64,000 nt of DNA from Fimbriimonadaceae bacterium. Lineage in GTDB: Bacteria; Armatimonadota; Fimbriimonadia; Fimbriimonadales; Fimbriimonadaceae. Shown one piece after another: positions 33,131-40,440 of the stretch. Position 1 is the stretch's first letter, and each line of letters starts with the position of its first letter. The translations under genes were made by a program, and so were the position numbers. The stretch lies in NCBI GenBank assembly GCA_022843485.1, contig JALHNM010000002.1, positions 158,238 through 222,237 on the forward strand, in the 5' to 3' direction. The notes under the pieces are model-generated. The model had not been told where the DNA came from. It saw only the letters and a list, made by a program, of their open reading frames with translations, and did no database searches.

Positions 33131-34417
33131 ATGAGACTCATCACCCTTCTCCTCGCCTGCAGTCTGGGGGCGGCCGCGACCGCCCAAATCGTCCATGGCA
33201 CCGCCGAGGTCGTGAGCGGCCAAGTCCGCCAGGCCAACGGCACCTGGGCGGACGTGACCGGCACCGTCCTTCAGGTGCAAATCGAGCGCATCGAGGCCCG
33301 CAAGGTCAACGAACCACGGCGCCCGGGCCCCGTCCTCGAGAACGGCACCGTCAACCCTGCCTTCACGGTGATCTACCAGAACGACCGGCCGAGCAACTAC
33401 TTCGCGAACCCGGGCATCTGCAGCGCCCTCGACGACTGGACGATCCTCCCGGCTGGCATCGGCCAACCGTGGCGGCGTCTGACCTTCGGCGTCTCGACGC
33501 AGCGAACCTCCGGCGACGTCCTATGGCACCTCAACGCGTGGGAGACCTACGTCGCCGGTCGAGGGGCCGGCGTCAGCGCGTTCGACCGGGTCTTCGTTAA
33601 CAACTTCGGCGTCCGGTTCAACACGTCGCAGTTCCCGGCGCCGGGGGACTATAAGGTCACGGTCGTCTGGCCGACCTCGGGCCCGCAGATCGTCGCGCCC
33701 AGCACCTCCGTCTTCTTCGGCCAGACTTGGCGCGAGTTCAACATCTTCGGCCAGGGGGCGTTCCTGCTCGGTGAGATGGGCCCCGTCTTCAGCGGCGACG
33801 GCGATCCCCAAATCGGGGCGAGCACCGACCTCTTCTGGCTGGACAACGAGCCGAACATGGTGTTCGACGAGACCGAGGCCGACTTCTTCAACGGCCCGCC
33901 GAACCAGGCGAACGTCCTGTTCGTCATCGAGACCGGCTCGGCAGGACAGCAGGACGTCATCAAGCCGATCTCCTTCCGCTGGTTCCGAGGCAGGGCCAAC
34001 GGAGGGACCGTGGGCAGCCTGCACAACGTCGATCAGAACTACCTTCGCGGCCTTCGCGGCATCACAGCCAACCCCGCCGAGGCCCCGCTCCAGCTCGAGG
34101 CGGAAGGGTTCTCTAGCTTCACGAACCTCACGGAGATGAAGCTCGACCTCATGACCTCGGTCACGACCCCCGGGCTCCGCCAACGGGCCGAGATCTTCAA
34201 CTTCTCGACCAACCAGTGGGTCCAGCTCGACGACCGGGTCGCCCCGCAGACGGACACCCGGGTCACCCTGACCGCCCCCGCCCCCGCGACGAGCTACGTC
34301 GAGCCGGGCTCGGGCACCGTCCGGGCCCGGATCCAGTACCGCCAGGTCGCGCCGGTGAACAGCCCGAACTGGGGCGCACGGATCGACTTGACGAACTGGG
34401 TCACGACCCGCCCCTAA
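33131..34417 (+). CDS. Secreted beta-rich protein of unknown function
   Basis: A 428-residue protein with a clear signal peptide (MRLITLLLACSLGAAATAQ). The mature protein is rich in Asn, Thr, Trp and beta-strand patterns. The last 100 residues (EIFNFSTNQWVQLDDR, then SYVEPGSGTVRARIQYR and NWGARIDLTNW) look like the beta-sandwich ends common to armatimonad secreted proteins. No enzyme motif is visible. A GTACAAT box lies about 20 bases before the ATG. A hairpin terminator follows. Confidence 0.7.
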   Translation: MRLITLLLACSLGAAATAQIVHGTAEVVSGQVRQANGTWADVTGTVLQVQIERIEARKVNEPRRPGPVLENGTVNPAFTVIYQNDRPSNYFANPGICSALDDWTILPAGIGQPWRRLTFGVSTQRTSGDVLWHLNAWETYVAGRGAGVSAFDRVFVNNFGVRFNTSQFPAPGDYKVTVVWPTSGPQIVAPSTSVFFGQTWREFNIFGQGAFLLGEMGPVFSGDGDPQIGASTDLFWLDNEPNMVFDETEADFFNGPPNQANVLFVIETGSAGQQDVIKPISFRWFRGRANGGTVGSLHNVDQNYLRGLRGITANPAEAPLQLEAEGFSSFTNLTEMKLDLMTSVTTPGLRQRAEIFNFSTNQWVQLDDRVAPQTDTRVTLTAPAPATSYVEPGSGTVRARIQYRQVAPVNSPNWGARIDLTNWVTTRP

Positions 34418-34496: not shown

Positions 34497-35237
34497 ATGC
34501 CTCCCTCTAGCGAGATCGTCGTCCGACTCGGCGGGGCCGAACTCCGGGTGGCGGTCGTACGCTCGCCCCGAGCCCGGAGGGTGCGCGTCCGCGTCGACGA
34601 ACGGGGCGCGACCGCCGTCATCCCCGCCCGAATGGCCCTCCACGAAGTCGAACGGGCCGTCCAACCCCTTGGGCCCTGGATCGAGAGGCACCTGCGAGCC
34701 ATGGCGGCCCGCCGCTCGACAAGGAGCACGGCGGGCCTGTGGCTCCGTGGGGAAGAGCACCGCCTCGTCCCCGGGTTGAGCAGGTGCTTCGTCGAAGATG
34801 GGCCCAAGGTCGGTGTCCCTAGCGGTGCCACCGAAGCCGACCTGGTGAGCTGGCTCGTCGCGAAGGCGAGGGTCGCCATGGCCGAGCGGCTCTCGATCCG
34901 GAGCCGAGAGATGGGGCTCGCCCCAAGCCGGGTCTCGATCCGCGACCAGAAGACCAAGTGGGGCGCCTGCACCTCGAGAGGCACGGTCACGCTGAACTGG
35001 CGGCTCGTCATGGCCCCGCCCGAGGTCTTGGACTACGTGGTCGTCCACGAGCTGGCCCACCTCGCCGAGCTCAACCATTCCCCCCGTTTCTGGGCGATCG
35101 TCGAGCGGCACTGCCCGGACTGGAAGCGCCACCGCGATTGGCTCAAGGCCAACGGCTGGCGCCTCCAGTCGCTGCCTGCGCTCCCCTCTGCGACAGGGGT
35201 GCCGGATGGGGTATCCCTTCAGTCGTCACACCTATGA
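34497..35237 (+). CDS. YgjP-like (DUF45/M48) zinc metallopeptidase
   Basis: A 246-residue cytosolic protein. The N-terminal half is the basic RRVRVRVDERGATAVIPA strand-rich domain of YgjP, and the C-terminal half has the zinc site VVHELAHLAELNHSPRFW (HExxH plus the third His), preceded by the family motif KWGACTSRGTVTLNWRLV. YgjP-family members have been linked to nucleotide-modification defence contexts and to general proteolysis, but no substrate is known. Its ATGA stop/start overlap with the bPH-like gene makes it the head of the operon that leads into the DUF6754 cluster. Confidence 0.9.
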   Translation: MPPSSEIVVRLGGAELRVAVVRSPRARRVRVRVDERGATAVIPARMALHEVERAVQPLGPWIERHLRAMAARRSTRSTAGLWLRGEEHRLVPGLSRCFVEDGPKVGVPSGATEADLVSWLVAKARVAMAERLSIRSREMGLAPSRVSIRDQKTKWGACTSRGTVTLNWRLVMAPPEVLDYVVVHELAHLAELNHSPRFWAIVERHCPDWKRHRDWLKANGWRLQSLPALPSATGVPDGVSLQSSHL

Positions 35238-35719
35238 CCGCGACTGCGCCGACCCCGACCGTCCAGGCCCTTGAGTGGGAGGTACGGTTGTGGGAGTCCC
35301 GACCTACGCAACGGCGCAAAGTCTTGGTCGCGGCGGGGTTCGCGGCCGTCGCCGCGGTGCTCCTGTTCGGCCGGGACCCGTTCCCGCCCGCGACGGCCCC
35401 GTTCATGGCGCTCGTGGGGTTCGCCACGATCGTGGTGAGCACGGCCGAGCTGTTCTTCCCGCTCCGCTACCGGCTCGACGGGGAAGACGCGCGGGTGCGG
35501 TGCGGTGCGAGCGTCACCGCGATCCGATGGGCCGACGTCAAGCGTCTTGTCCCTATGGAGGACGGCGTGAAGCTCTCCCCCTTGGCCGCGCCCAGCCGAT
35601 TGGACGCTTTTCGCGGGGTTTACTTGCGCTATGCGGGCAACGAGGGCGCGGTATTGGACACAATACGCGCACTCTGGAACAGCGATGCAGACGTTTTGGG
35701 ATCAGGAGCTCACGAGTGA
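35234..35719 (+). CDS. Membrane-anchored bPH-like protein
   Basis: A 161-residue protein from the ATG that overlaps the peptidase stop. Two membrane helices (about residues 29-47 and 54-76) are followed by a small strand-rich domain with the pattern YRLDGEDARVRCGASVTAIRWADVKRL, which resembles bacterial pleckstrin-homology domains of the YdbT/DUF304 type; this is a resemblance, not a firm assignment. The open frame upstream lies in the peptidase gene and is rejected. Its last 35 bases overlap the next gene in another frame. Confidence 0.65.
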   Translation: MTATAPTPTVQALEWEVRLWESRPTQRRKVLVAAGFAAVAAVLLFGRDPFPPATAPFMALVGFATIVVSTAELFFPLRYRLDGEDARVRCGASVTAIRWADVKRLVPMEDGVKLSPLAAPSRLDAFRGVYLRYAGNEGAVLDTIRALWNSDADVLGSGAHE

Positions 35720-35984
35720 GGAGGCCGATCAGTTGATCGGCCGGGTCGCCGCCCTCATCGGCAAGCGCCACATGGAGACCCCCGCGATCTTCGCGCTCGA
35801 GATGCACCGGCCCGTCATGGGCATCGCCGCCCAGGGCATGATCGCCTTCTCGCCGTTCCTCGTCCCGTTCGTCGGCTTCGACAACGTGAACGACTACAGC
35901 CGGCTCCTCGCCAAGCGCGAGTACGTCGAACGCCTCATCCAGCGCCTGGAGGAGGCGCGCGAACTTCCCCCAAAGGAGTCCTGA
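35685..35984 (+). CDS. Small protein of DUF6754 operon
   Basis: A 99-residue protein from the ATG at 35685: an acidic helix (DQELTSEEADQLIGRVAALI), a hydrophobic centre of about 20 residues (PVMGIAAQGMIAFSPFLVPFVGF) and a charged helical end. The centre could be one membrane helix or a buried core. No family recognised. It overlaps the preceding gene by 35 bp, which is unusual, but the hydrophobic pattern and placement argue that it is real. The earlier ATG at 35631 would enlarge the overlap. Confidence 0.6.
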   Translation: MQTFWDQELTSEEADQLIGRVAALIGKRHMETPAIFALEMHRPVMGIAAQGMIAFSPFLVPFVGFDNVNDYSRLLAKREYVERLIQRLEEARELPPKES

Positions 35985-35993
35985 CCCACGACC

Positions 35994-36989
35994 ATGCAAT
36001 GGCTCGACACCGGTTGGTTCGGGATCGTCATCACCCTCGTGATGGTGACGTTCATCCTGTCCAACATCTATCGGGCGGACAAGGGCAAGAAAGAGCTCTT
36101 CATCCGCCGCATCCCCGGCCTGAACGCCATCGACGACGCGATCGGGCGCGCCACTGAGATGGGGCGCCCCGTCATCATGGTCCCCGGGATCGGGTCGCTC
36201 AACGCCGTCTCGGTCCAGGCGCTCAACGTGTTCGCCCACGTGACGAAGACGGCCGCCCAGTTCTCGACGCCCATCAAGCTTTGCGTCGCCGACGCCGCCG
36301 TCTACACCGTGGCGCAAGAGGTGATCCGCGACGTGTACCAGAAGCAGGGGATGATCGAGCGCTACGACGTGGACTCGGTACGGTTCGTCTCGGACCGCCA
36401 GTTCGCCTTCGCGGCGGGCGTGAGCGGGACTATCCTCCGAGAGAAGGCGGCGGCCACGTTCCTCCTCGGCGAGTTCTTCGCCGAGTCGCTCATCTTCGCC
36501 GAGACCGCGAACAGCGTCGGCGCCATCCAGGTCGCGGGCTCCACCCAGACCTCTCAGACCCCGTTCTTCATCGCCGCTTGCGACTACGTCCTTATCGGAG
36601 ACGAGTTCTATGCCGCGAGCGCCTACCTGAGCCGCGTGCCGGTCCTCGTCGGAAGCCTCGTGGGGCAGGACTGGTGCAAGCTCCTGATCGCGACCGGGAT
36701 CCTCCTTGGGTTCGCTACGAACAGCCTCGAGCGGAGCCAGGAGACGAGCGTCGGGCGGGTGCCCCTCGCCGTCGCCGCACCGGAGAAGTGGACGGCCATG
36801 ACGGAAGAGACGAAGAGCGTCTTTGAAGCGGCCGAGGACGAAATCCCGCTGGACAAGCCCCGTCTGCGAAAGCGGAACGAGACAAGCGTGTTCCGACTCT
36901 TCAACCCCCTTGTCCGCGAGGCTGACCTGCGCGTCGAACGGCCTCAGAAGCCGCCGGCGCCACCCGCCGCGACAGGAGGGGCCCAGTGA
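35994..36989 (+). CDS. DUF6754 membrane protein
   Basis: A 331-residue protein with an N-terminal membrane helix (residues 7-24), a large cytoplasm-or-periplasm domain and a hydrophobic hairpin near residue 230 (LLIATGILLGFATN). The conserved body (GRPVIMVPGIGSLNAVSVQ, ADAAVYTVAQEVIRDVY, FAAGVSGTILREKAAATFLLGEFFAES, QTSQTPFFIAACDYVLIGDEFYAASAYLS) is what I recognise as DUF6754, seen in armatimonads and Chloroflexi. No function is known. Gly- and Ala-rich helices and TQTSQTPFF loops do not match any enzyme I know. It overlaps the next gene by four bases (GTGA). Confidence 0.8.
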   Translation: MQWLDTGWFGIVITLVMVTFILSNIYRADKGKKELFIRRIPGLNAIDDAIGRATEMGRPVIMVPGIGSLNAVSVQALNVFAHVTKTAAQFSTPIKLCVADAAVYTVAQEVIRDVYQKQGMIERYDVDSVRFVSDRQFAFAAGVSGTILREKAAATFLLGEFFAESLIFAETANSVGAIQVAGSTQTSQTPFFIAACDYVLIGDEFYAASAYLSRVPVLVGSLVGQDWCKLLIATGILLGFATNSLERSQETSVGRVPLAVAAPEKWTAMTEETKSVFEAAEDEIPLDKPRLRKRNETSVFRLFNPLVREADLRVERPQKPPAPPAATGGAQ

Positions 36990-37930
36990 TCCCGTTAGCC
37001 CAAGCGCCGCCCATCACGTTCTGGGGGGTTCAGCCCGGCTCGGGCGAGATGTGGGTCAAGATCGTCGTGGCCCTTGTGGTCTGCCTCCTGATCATGTTCG
37101 GCCTCACGTTCCTGCCGAACGCGGGGAGAAAGGCCGTTGTCTGGGGCTTCACGTTCGCAGGCGGCCTCTTCTACGTGCTGCTCTGGATCGTTCCGACCCC
37201 GATCAACCGCGGCCCCAGCGACCTCCCGCGTCCGGGCGAAGAGTTCGGGTTCTGGCTCCAAGACGCACTCCCCCACATCGTCAACTCGGCGAACATCCTC
37301 ACCGCGTTCCTGCTCGGGCTCGGCATCTACTCGCTGCTTCGCGTCCACCTCGGGCGCATCGCGAAACGCCAGCCCGACCGCGAGTTCAGCGCCATCCTGC
37401 TCGTCTGCATGGTCGTGATGGCGGGGTTCGGCTATGCCGACTGGATCATGAGGCGGTTCGGGGAGGGCCGCGAGAAGCTGGAACTCATGCAGAACTGGAC
37501 CCCCGTCCAGTACGCGTTCGACCTCATGTTCGACGGGTTGCTCCAACAGATGGACGCCGCGATGTTCTCGATGATCGCGTTCTTCATCCTGTCCGCCGCC
37601 TACCGGGCCTTCCGAATCCGCTCGGTCGAGTCGACGGTGCTGATGGCGAGCGCACTCATCTTGATGCTCAGCCTCCTCGGGGCGCTGGTCGCGCTCTGGA
37701 ACGGGGGAGTCGACGCTATGGCCGTCGCCCTTAACCTTCCGAACGCCAGCGTCGACCTGAAGGAAGCCCACTTCCTCAACAACTTCAAACTGAACGAGGT
37801 CGCGAACTGGGTGAGGAGCTTCCTGCAAGTCCCTGCCCTCCGCGCCCTTGAGTTCGGGGTCGGCCTCGGCGCTCTCGCCATGGGCCTCCGACTCTGGCTC
37901 GGACTCGAAAAAGGAGGGATCAGCGCGTGA
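36986..37930 (+). CDS. Seven-helix membrane protein of DUF6754 operon
   Basis: A 314-residue integral membrane protein with about seven helices: residues near 24-46, 52-72, 98-117, 132-154, 190-212, 215-238 and a C-terminal one (GVGLGALAMGLRLWLG). An amphipathic section separates the first four from the last three. No transporter motif or catalytic residue stands out. It overlaps both neighbours by four bases, so its amount should match theirs, which suggests a fixed-stoichiometry complex. Confidence 0.7.
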   Translation: MIPLAQAPPITFWGVQPGSGEMWVKIVVALVVCLLIMFGLTFLPNAGRKAVVWGFTFAGGLFYVLLWIVPTPINRGPSDLPRPGEEFGFWLQDALPHIVNSANILTAFLLGLGIYSLLRVHLGRIAKRQPDREFSAILLVCMVVMAGFGYADWIMRRFGEGREKLELMQNWTPVQYAFDLMFDGLLQQMDAAMFSMIAFFILSAAYRAFRIRSVESTVLMASALILMLSLLGALVALWNGGVDAMAVALNLPNASVDLKEAHFLNNFKLNEVANWVRSFLQVPALRALEFGVGLGALAMGLRLWLGLEKGGISA

Positions 37931-38904
37931 CCCCGCAAAAGTCCATTTGGGAAAAGCTCCAAGAGATCGACCGGAGGATCCTCTACCTCATCCTCGCGAT
38001 AGCGGTCACCGTGCCGCTCTGGATCCCGGCCAAGCTGCCCGTCATCCCGGACAGCACGTCTATGGATCTTTACGGCCAGCTTATGAGCGTGCCGGAGGAT
38101 AAGACCGTGTTCGTGCAATCCGACTGGACGGTCTCGACCCGAGGCGAGAGCCAAGGGCACCTCGAAGCTCTGCTCCGGATCCTTATGGCGCGCCGGATCA
38201 AGTTCGTGATCTACGCCGCCGCCGACCCGCAGGCACCACAGGTCTTCCGCAACGTGATCCTCGGGCTTAACCAGGAACGGGAAGCGAGGGGTCTGCCGCC
38301 ATACCGGCAATGGGAGGACTACATCGACCTCGGCGCCTTCCTGAACGCGGAAGGCACGCTGAACTCGATCGGCCAGGACGTCCGGAAGCTCTTCGGTCCG
38401 CGACGCTCGGCCGACACGGAGGGCCGGGAACGCCCCGTCCTCGAGTCACCGGTCCTCAGCCGAGTGCAAAAGATCGGGGACGCCGGTCTCTACGTGGTCG
38501 TCACCGCCTCCGCCACCATCGACGTCGCCGTCCAACGGATCTCGGGCAAGACCAAGCTCGCGGCCATGACGACCGGCGTCGTCTTCCCCAGCGTCCTGCC
38601 GTTCTACCAGTCCGGACAGGTCGTCGGGGCCGCTGGCGGACTGAAGGGGGTCTACGACATGGAGTTCCTCATGGCCAACGGCGTGAACGTCGTCAGCCCG
38701 ACCGGGAAGGTCGAAGCCCAGTTCCCGGCGAAAGCGGAACTCACCGCGCCACCGCTCACCGAGATCGAGCCTAAGACGGTCACCTTCGCGCGTGGCCAGC
38801 GGTACTTCCTCTCCTTCCACGCGGCGATCGTGCTCCTCATCATCGCCGTCGTCGTAGGCAACATCGGCATGTACAAGATGCGCAAGAACAGGAGGGGCGC
38901 TTGA
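37927..38904 (+). CDS. Bitopic membrane protein with large extracytoplasmic domain, DUF6754 operon
   Basis: A 325-residue protein with one helix near each end (about 18-34 and 293-316) and some 255 residues between them, on the outside if the basic termini stay in the cytoplasm. The middle domain starts with MDLYGQLMSVPEDKTVFVQSDWTVSTRGESQGHLEAL and includes a Rossmann-like stretch RRIKFVIYAAADPQAPQVFRNVI, and later AMTTGVVFPSVLPFYQSGQVVGAAGGLKG. I recognise no family. GTGA and TTGA overlaps join it to its neighbours. Confidence 0.7.
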   Translation: MTPQKSIWEKLQEIDRRILYLILAIAVTVPLWIPAKLPVIPDSTSMDLYGQLMSVPEDKTVFVQSDWTVSTRGESQGHLEALLRILMARRIKFVIYAAADPQAPQVFRNVILGLNQEREARGLPPYRQWEDYIDLGAFLNAEGTLNSIGQDVRKLFGPRRSADTEGRERPVLESPVLSRVQKIGDAGLYVVVTASATIDVAVQRISGKTKLAAMTTGVVFPSVLPFYQSGQVVGAAGGLKGVYDMEFLMANGVNVVSPTGKVEAQFPAKAELTAPPLTEIEPKTVTFARGQRYFLSFHAAIVLLIIAVVVGNIGMYKMRKNRRGA

Positions 38905-39680
38905 ACCCAGAGACCTATCTCCTTATCAAGCTGACCTTCGGGGTTTTGGCGACGATCGGGCTCTACAGCGTGCTCTATAAGGAGACCAAGCTCTACCGGT
39001 TCTTCGAGCACGTGTTCCTCGGCCTCGCCGCTGGGTTCTCGATCGTCTTCCTCTGGCGCGAGACCCTCTTCCCGCTCTGGTGGGAGAAGATGGTCGGCCA
39101 GATCGACGAACAGTCCGGCGCGCTCGTCCAGCCGGCCTACTGGGCCTACATCGTGTTCTTACCGATCGGTCTCATGGCCTACACCGTCTTCAGCAAGAAG
39201 AACGGCTGGATGAGCCGCGTCCCGATCGGCGTGATCCTCGGCCTCTGGGCGGGCCAGCAGGTCCAGGTCTGGTGGCAGACCTACGGTGGCCAGATCGCAG
39301 GCACGATGCAGCCCGTCATCCCGACCGGTCTCGCGGGGCCCGCGGGCACGTTCCAGTGGACCAAACCGGGCAACACCGGCCTCACCCCGGAACAGATCGC
39401 GGACTTCAACACCAAGATCTGGCCCAGCCAAGCCGTCAACAACCTGATCTTCGTCATCACCGTGCTCGCCGCGCTCAGCTACTTCCTGTTCAGCTTCGAA
39501 CTCAAGGGCAAGGCGATGATCGGGTTCAACAAGCTCGGCCGCTGGTTGCTCATGATCGGCTTCGGCGCGATCTTCGGCAGCACGGTCATGGCCCGCTTCG
39601 CCCTCGTCATCGACCGGATGTCGTTCGTGTTCGTCGAGTGGGTGCAAAGCATCCAGGCCGTCTTCAACCGAGGCGCCTGA
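38901..39680 (+). CDS. Multi-helix membrane protein, last of DUF6754 cluster
   Basis: A 259-residue membrane protein starting TTG inside the preceding stop (TTGA). Five or six helices are visible: about residues 4-26, 35-52, 78-97, 105-120, 179-200 and 215-237. The loop around residues 120-165 is rich in Gly, Gln and Pro (QTYGGQIAGTMQPVIPTG). No known family. recO follows after 13 bp and may be on the same mRNA. Confidence 0.7.
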   Translation: MNPETYLLIKLTFGVLATIGLYSVLYKETKLYRFFEHVFLGLAAGFSIVFLWRETLFPLWWEKMVGQIDEQSGALVQPAYWAYIVFLPIGLMAYTVFSKKNGWMSRVPIGVILGLWAGQQVQVWWQTYGGQIAGTMQPVIPTGLAGPAGTFQWTKPGNTGLTPEQIADFNTKIWPSQAVNNLIFVITVLAALSYFLFSFELKGKAMIGFNKLGRWLLMIGFGAIFGSTVMARFALVIDRMSFVFVEWVQSIQAVFNRGA

Positions 39681-39693
39681 GCGACCACAGGAC

Positions 39694-40440
39694 GTGGCGC
39701 TCGACGTCACCGCCCGGGCGATCGTCCTCCGCCGGTCCGACTCTGGAGAGTCGGACCGGCGGATCGTTGTCCTGACTGCCGAGTCAGGCAAGCTCGACCT
39801 GGTCGCCAAGGGTGCCCGCAAAGCGGGCTCGCGCCTCGCGGGATCGAGCGAGCCCCTCGTCCAGGCCGTTTTCACCTGGGCCGCAGGGAGGCACCGTCGG
39901 TTCGTCACGCAAGTCCAACCAGTGACCTCCTACCCTGGTCTGCGCAAGGACTTTTCGCGCCTGTCCGCCGCCCTCGCCCTCGTCGAGTTGGTGGACGTCT
40001 CGCTCCCCTACGAGAGCCCCGCGCCCGAAGTTCTGACGGTCCTCGAAACCGGACTCGGGGCGCTCGCCGGACCGGGCCCTTGGGAAGCGGCACTTGCTTG
40101 GACGCTGGCCACCCTCCTCGAGGCCGAGGGGATCCACCCGGAGTGGACGACGTGCGCCGTCTCAGGGCAGCCCCTGGCCGAGAACCCCGCTTGGGTCTCC
40201 CCCCGGGCCGGTGGATACGTCCGCGCCGAACTCGCCGCACCCTTTCCCGACCGGACTCCTGTCACCGCCGAGACGCTCATCGCCCTACGTCGCCTCGGCG
40301 AGATCCAGTCCCCACCCCCTGCCCTTCGCGGCGCCTCGGAGTGCCTCGAGACCCTGTTCCAGTTCTGGCGCGCGACGCTGGAGCGCCCGTTGTCGGCGCT
40401 CGAGGCCGTCCTCCGCGAACTGAGACGGGAGGACAGCTAG
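39694..40440 (+). CDS. recO: DNA repair protein RecO
   Basis: RecO anneals ssDNA and, with RecR, loads RecA in the RecFOR pathway. The 248-residue length, the N-terminal OB domain (ALDVTARAIVLRRSDSGESDRRIVVLTAESGKLDLVAKGARK, with the KGARK motif) and the helical C-terminal domain fit. The four cysteines of the usual zinc finger are reduced to one (TTCAVSG), so it probably binds no zinc. GTG start, no Shine-Dalgarno. Codons 12-24 contain a 16-bp perfect inverted repeat, listed separately. Confidence 0.9.
   Translation: MALDVTARAIVLRRSDSGESDRRIVVLTAESGKLDLVAKGARKAGSRLAGSSEPLVQAVFTWAAGRHRRFVTQVQPVTSYPGLRKDFSRLSAALALVELVDVSLPYESPAPEVLTVLETGLGALAGPGPWEAALAWTLATLLEAEGIHPEWTTCAVSGQPLAENPAWVSPRAGGYVRAELAAPFPDRTPVTAETLIALRRLGEIQSPPPALRGASECLETLFQFWRATLERPLSALEAVLRELRREDS
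39728..39763. repeat. Perfect 16-bp inverted repeat inside recO
   Basis: The left arm 39728-39743 and right arm 39748-39763 are exact reverse complements around a TGGA loop, so RNA or DNA could fold into a 16-bp hairpin. It is coding and specifies the near-palindromic peptide RRSDSGESDRR. Confidence 0.9.

Follow-up and report, generated by a model that had tools for sequence, protein, structure and literature searches.

A membrane gene cluster around DUF6754

We examined a 64,000-nucleotide stretch of DNA (the window) from the 2.96-Mb genome of an Armatimonadota species, a Fimbriimonadaceae bacterium (assembly GCA_022843485.1, contig JALHNM010000002.1). Reading the sequence directly, we found seven same-strand genes (34.4–39.7 kb) leading up to recO, which starts at 39694. 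Four of them, encoding a DUF6754 protein and the membrane proteins that we call TM7, 2TM, and TMlast, form the cassette described here. The cassette appears to be the membrane half of a larger system, whose putative cytosolic half is encoded elsewhere in the same genome. The seven genes are as follows (positions in the window):

34497–35237, + strand: YgjP-like zinc metallopeptidase (PF01863, 181 bits); absent from all 80 related loci, a neighbor outside the system
35234–35719, + strand: bPH-like two-helix membrane protein, 161 amino acids; accessory component with two hydropathy peaks and no Pfam family
35685–35984, + strand: small protein, 99 amino acids; conserved component with one weakly hydrophobic segment
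35994–36989, + strand: DUF6754 protein (PF20539, 303 bits); transmembrane helix 1 (TM1), Rossmann-like alpha/beta domain (probably cytoplasmic), TM2, and external tail
36986–37930, + strand: TM7, seven-helix membrane protein by hydropathy, 314 amino acids; the gene after DUF6754 in 83 complete cassettes
37927–38904, + strand: 2TM protein; TM1, Rossmann-like domain of about 255 residues (probably external), and TM2; conserved third gene
38901–39680, + strand: TMlast, five- or six-helix membrane protein by hydropathy, 259 amino acids; conserved fourth gene

This gene succession is the one proposed in an earlier, sequence-only reading of the locus, which had also described most junctions as four-base overlaps. 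The four-base steps stand, and the full series needs correcting: the ATG of the bPH-like gene and the YgjP stop share a 4-base overlap, the bPH-like and small-protein genes overlap by 35 bases, a 9-base gap precedes DUF6754, and the three core junctions (DUF6754/TM7 GTGA, TM7/2TM GTGA, 2TM/TMlast TTGA) are each exact 4-base overlaps. By hydropathy and AlphaFold the whole set has about 18–20 membrane helices (bPH-like, two; small protein, zero to one; DUF6754, two; TM7, seven; 2TM, two; TMlast, five to six).

The DUF6754 protein is a clear member of PF20539, a family without described function (303 bits vs. a gathering score of 27, covering profile positions 13–250 of 257). None of the other five (bPH-like, small, TM7, 2TM, TMlast) belongs to a family in Pfam or NCBIfam. 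The likeness of the bPH-like protein to bPH domains is by eye only, with no bPH profile match up to E 1 for the two members searched. PDB sequence searches with six profiles gave nothing convincing, and profile search found no PDB relative of TM7 or TMlast. Two suspected homologies within the cassette were dropped, DUF6754 with 2TM (hhalign probability 2%) and TM7 with TMlast (0.2%); the TM–Rossmann–TM layout common to the first pair can thus for now be called no more than an analogy. No literature naming DUF6754, PF20539, or PF13941 (the family of the MutL-like protein introduced below) was found in open-access sources, where papers on GlmL were either classical or irrelevant.

The cassette is conserved across phyla

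A DUF6754 profile run on GTDB genome contigs yielded at least 546 confirmed relatives, and our locus counts use the best 80 of these. The 80 loci come from about a dozen phyla, among them Armatimonadota, WOR-3/Stahlbacteria, Eisenbacteria, Poribacteria, Latescibacterota, Fermentibacteria/Aegiribacteria, Coatesbacteria, Edwardsbacteria, and Riflebacteria; one record labeled Actinomycetota may be misbinned. DUF6754, TM7, 2TM, and TMlast follow one another, complete and on one strand, in 75 of the 80 loci. A contig end truncates four of the five exceptions, leaving a single real one, L058. Because the order is kept in so many loci of many phyla, with four of five exceptions at a contig edge, it is conserved far beyond chance. 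The four-gene block is doubled in eight loci. L058 (9677–10762) is the sole untruncated locus without recognizable TM7, 2TM, and TMlast genes after DUF6754, and a 591-base open reading frame lies directly 3′ of it.

Of the genomes sampled, 173 of 201 from Armatimonadota and 54 of 60 from WOR-3 encode DUF6754; the 14 well-known control genomes all lack it. The DUF6754 domain is highly conserved, with a mean identity of 57% per column and 27 invariant columns among 89 sequences. Genes for the bPH-like and small proteins, adjoining each other, lie near the cassette in 43/80 loci, and small-protein homologues were found in 46 of 81 sequences (the window plus the 80 loci). The bPH-like and small-protein genes thus belong with the cluster in most loci. 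YgjP, named earlier as a possible companion, is near the cassette in 0/80 loci and is a chance neighbor.

A putative MutL-like ATPase and c3 co-occur with the cassette

Clustering the neighbors of the 80 loci revealed two extra genes between the small protein and DUF6754 in Fermentibacteria/Aegiribacteria/Eisenbacteria-like genomes. They encode a MutL-like protein of about 620 amino acids (PF13941, 425 bits) and a protein of about 370 amino acids that we denote c3. Seven loci (L068, L092, L097, L101, L103, L107, and L110) carry a single operon bPH–small–MutL–c3–DUF6754–TM7–2TM–TMlast; in L099, MutL and c3 are on the opposite side of the cassette. In WOR-3 the small protein is directly 5′ of MutL (L123 and L126), with c3 elsewhere. 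The window genome has exactly one MutL (G000:C13:5184–6665, in L114; PF13941, 436 bits) and exactly one c3 (G000:C11:6612–7715, in L115; 51% identical to the c3 of L103), each on a separate contig. Identity between phyla is about 60% for MutL and about 50% for c3.

The ASKHA-type phosphate motifs DCGSTTTKAI and DIGGATTD are invariant in MutL (alignment A5), and the window-genome MutL falls below all three NCBIfam cut-offs (GlmL, Or-4, and GlmL subfamily), scoring 229.9 vs. 475 bits for the GlmL equivalog and 183 vs. 204 for the subfamily. The N-terminal half of c3 has weak matches to barrel-sandwich families (Biotin_lipoyl and RnfC_N) in 9–11 of 12 members, and its end resembles KOW; in the window genome the c3 match to RnfC_N (19.7 bits) is below the cut-off of 25.6, and that to Biotin_lipoyl only reaches its own (22.1). 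In at least four genomes a divergent MutL is fused to c3 in one frame (about 850–990 amino acids) as a paralogue apart from the DUF6754 cassette (L120:8277–11168, L121:1626–4502, L122:7806–10769, and L125:461–3007). These natural fusions argue for a direct interaction between MutL and c3.

We then compared presence and absence across the 201 Armatimonadota genomes. DUF6754 is missing in 28 (eight of these deduced as the genomes missing from the positive list), MutL over the cut-off in 22, and c3 in 19; all three are present in 167 and all three missing in 17. Fisher tests gave p values of 2e-13 (DUF6754/MutL), 2e-15 (DUF6754/c3), and 7e-21 (MutL/c3). Genomes without just one component are mostly incomplete assemblies. 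The 2TM protein is also missing in 16 of the 17 triple-negative genomes, the exception, G147, being merely incomplete. Since these 16 genomes are spread over 11 genera and seven families, and include two reduced 1.5-Mb genomes from the window's own family, several independent joint losses are likely. Outside Armatimonadota, 37 genomes with DUF6754 had MutL in 36 and c3 in 35 cases. One WOR-3 genome (G217) has six DUF6754 genes, one MutL, and one c3, suggesting that several membrane modules may share a single MutL/c3 engine.

Could the cluster simply consist of housekeeping membrane genes that have nothing to do with one another and stay together by operon inheritance only? In Fimbriimonadales, recO and other housekeeping genes do flank the cassette. 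These flanks change across phyla, however, while the order within the cassette is kept, and whole-block duplication in eight loci and joint loss with the unlinked MutL and c3 contradict the idea, which we consider very improbable. By operon, co-occurrence, and fusion evidence, MutL and c3 belong to the system as its putative cytosolic half. The sequence-only reading had proposed an undescribed envelope complex. The conserved, translationally coupled, undescribed membrane gene set probably does encode a complex, and the envelope label is plausible, but that set is only the membrane half.

Predicted structure and topology

In confident models, AlphaFold shows the DUF6754 core (predicted local distance difference test, pLDDT, 93.1) as a helix (8–30), an alpha/beta domain with six strands, and a second helix (216–253), and the 2TM protein (pLDDT 95.9) as a helix (15–31), an alpha/beta domain, and a helix (288–323). 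At E ≤ 1e-3, Foldseek matched neither protein to a PDB structure. In VIA-align comparisons, DUF6754 matched Sir2 (Z 11.7, root-mean-square deviation [rmsd] 3.6, 144 aligned), the RCK domain of MthK (Z 10.0, rmsd 3.0, 112 aligned), and the epsilon subunit of carbon monoxide dehydrogenase/acetyl-CoA synthase (CODH/ACS; Z 9.5, rmsd 3.4, 137 aligned), which the 2TM domain matched as well (Z 8.5, rmsd 3.1, 143 aligned). Both modeled domains are Rossmann-like, and the fold matches point to no function. The search for a named Rossmann family (RCK/TrkA-N or other) for either protein gave generic fold matches only, with Foldseek E above 1e-3.

Charge bias in the alignments follows the positive-inside pattern. 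The net charge of DUF6754 is +3.7 after TM1 vs. −0.3 before it, so its domain is probably cytoplasmic; the 2TM protein has 3.2 K/R before TM1 vs. 1.4 after, so its N-terminus is probably inside and its domain outside. For the 2TM protein, the roughly 255-residue outer domain of the initial description thus probably stands, with two helices, one at each end, in place of a bitopic layout. DUF6754 proteins of other phyla (L103 and L068) are longer at the N-terminus; the added stretch, whose start is signal-like and which has no Pfam match, we read as an external domain.

These features bear on two rival explanations. In the first, the cluster encodes a membrane-bound enzyme complex: DUF6754 would carry out lipid, cofactor, or sugar chemistry at the membrane through its Rossmann-like domain, and the MutL-like protein would serve as an ATP-dependent chaperone for reactivation. 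The very high polar conservation of that domain (the 27 invariant columns) would fit, as would the kinship of MutL with GlmL (NCBIfam GlmL, 230 bits), the fold matches to NAD-binding and nucleotide-sugar-binding Rossmann enzymes, and the presence of gcvP, plsX, and fabH as neighbors in some phyla. Yet no catalytic or cofactor motif is recognizable, the fold matches are generic, and a second, external Rossmann-like domain and the roughly 13 helices of TM7 plus TMlast exceed an enzyme's needs. We think this explanation rather unlikely.

The second rival is a trans-membrane sensor or signaling/assembly scaffold, in which the external 2TM domain (with the DUF6754 N-terminal extension in other phyla) would sense the state of the envelope and signal via DUF6754 to MutL/c3. 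Domains on both membrane faces, several DUF6754 modules per genome with one MutL/c3, and the 4-base overlap of c3 with a response-regulator gene in the window genome speak for it. No such response-regulator link appears in WOR-3, though, and TM7 and TMlast are well-conserved polytopic proteins, unusual in sensors; we judge it improbable.

A putative ATP-driven membrane machine

The reading we favor, tentatively, is that the cluster is the membrane module of a multi-protein, ATP-fueled inner-membrane machine for transport or transfer. It would comprise seven to eight proteins, including a probable ATP-driven motor or switch protein, and we infer that they form one inner-membrane complex. In such a machine, the cytoplasmic Rossmann-like domain of DUF6754 would be the docking site for MutL and c3, TM7 and TMlast would form the membrane core, the external Rossmann-like domain of 2TM would receive or present a ligand, and the bPH-like and small proteins would have a supporting role at the membrane surface. 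By binding and hydrolyzing ATP, the MutL-like protein might drive a cycle of conformational changes through which a small molecule or envelope building block is moved or handed over.

Several observations weigh against this reading. The Rossmann-like fold is a generic one, and none of the PDB fold matches names a function. Invariant residues show no significant clustering at the strand ends, the ligand-binding position in Rossmann folds (p 0.09 and 0.13), and we therefore claim no active site. In the window genome, neither MutL nor c3 is linked to the cassette. The joint-loss counts carry no correction for phylogeny, and incomplete genomes account for some absences, for example, in G147, which keeps the 2TM gene.

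Known systems resemble parts of the proposed machine. The role usually suggested for GlmL is that of an ATP-dependent reactivating chaperone for glutamate mutase. The MutL described here is in the same Pfam family as GlmL/MutL of B12-dependent glutamate mutase (PF13941, NF040745, and TIGR01319; 425–436 bits) and has the ASKHA-type ATP-site motifs, but is longer (about 620 vs. about 460 amino acids), below the three NCBIfam cut-offs, and linked to c3 and DUF6754. Glutamate mutase E (PF06368), with which classical GlmL is partnered, is missing in 200 of the 201 Armatimonadota genomes, and a glutamate mutase link was dropped on this count; the one genome that has it (G063) carries an extra short, high-scoring MutL. 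The N-terminal barrel-sandwich domains of RnfC and NqrA weakly match c3, but c3 scores at or below cut-off, no Rnf/Nqr partner genes are among the conserved neighbors, and its conserved columns include no cysteine, hence no sign of an Fe–S carrier. Channels and transporters with membrane-anchored Rossmann domains (RCK/TrkA-N), such as MthK, share with DUF6754 a membrane helix that leads into a Rossmann domain, probably cytoplasmic in DUF6754 too (Z about 10, domain alone); no pore signature was recognized, and the generic fold alone is in common.

ATP-binding cassette (ABC) and GldFG-type ABC systems likewise combine polytopic proteins with a TM–alpha/beta–TM protein. The proposed system differs in that its candidate ATPase is the ASKHA protein: no ABC ATPase is among the genes read in the cluster, and none was seen in the most conserved neighbor families of the 80 loci. 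None of the eight proteins matched a PADLOC anti-phage model at E 0.01, and a defense-system reading was dropped.

We know of no machine, including in the open-access literature, that combines these parts, and we therefore rate the system as outside known kinds. It may be, though we think this less likely than not, that it represents a new class of primary-active inner-membrane machine, in which an ASKHA (MutL-like) ATPase and a barrel-sandwich adaptor power interchangeable modules with a Rossmann-like domain on each membrane face, in Armatimonadota, WOR-3, Poribacteria, Eisenbacteria, Fermentibacteria, and other mostly uncultured phyla.

The proposed system would unite eight protein families, six of which match no database family, and is nearly universal in the two sampled phyla, Armatimonadota and WOR-3. 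Given its preservation as a unit in about a dozen little-studied phyla, the cluster probably has an important job in the cell envelope; gene products conserved like core enzymes yet without known function are rare. An orphan GlmL branch would be tied to a membrane complex and not to a B12 mutase, a link that would correct the misleading annotation "methylaspartate mutase accessory protein." The gene set is small enough for expression and purification.

Neighboring genes

Just 5′ of YgjP, the window encodes a 428-amino-acid predicted secreted protein (33131–34417) with no Pfam match. In the window genome, c3 and an OmpR-type response regulator gene share a 4-base overlap (L115:5932–7724) and topA lies about 3.3 kb away on the same strand; c3 is also near topA in WOR-3 loci L124 and L127. 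Glycine cleavage P-protein genes are found directly 5′ of small–MutL in WOR-3 (L123:5641–9141 and L126:7440–10949) and directly 5′ of bPH–small–MutL in Fermentibacteria (L101:2889–8389). None adjoins MutL, c3, or the cassette in the window genome, and glycine cleavage genes were dropped as candidate functional partners. plsX- and fabH-like genes are 3′ of MutL in WOR-3. Finally, ExbB/ExbD/TonB-like genes lie 3′ of the cassette in several lineages (L101, L103, L110, and L094), in the first three of which a TonB-dependent-receptor-like gene stands in between.

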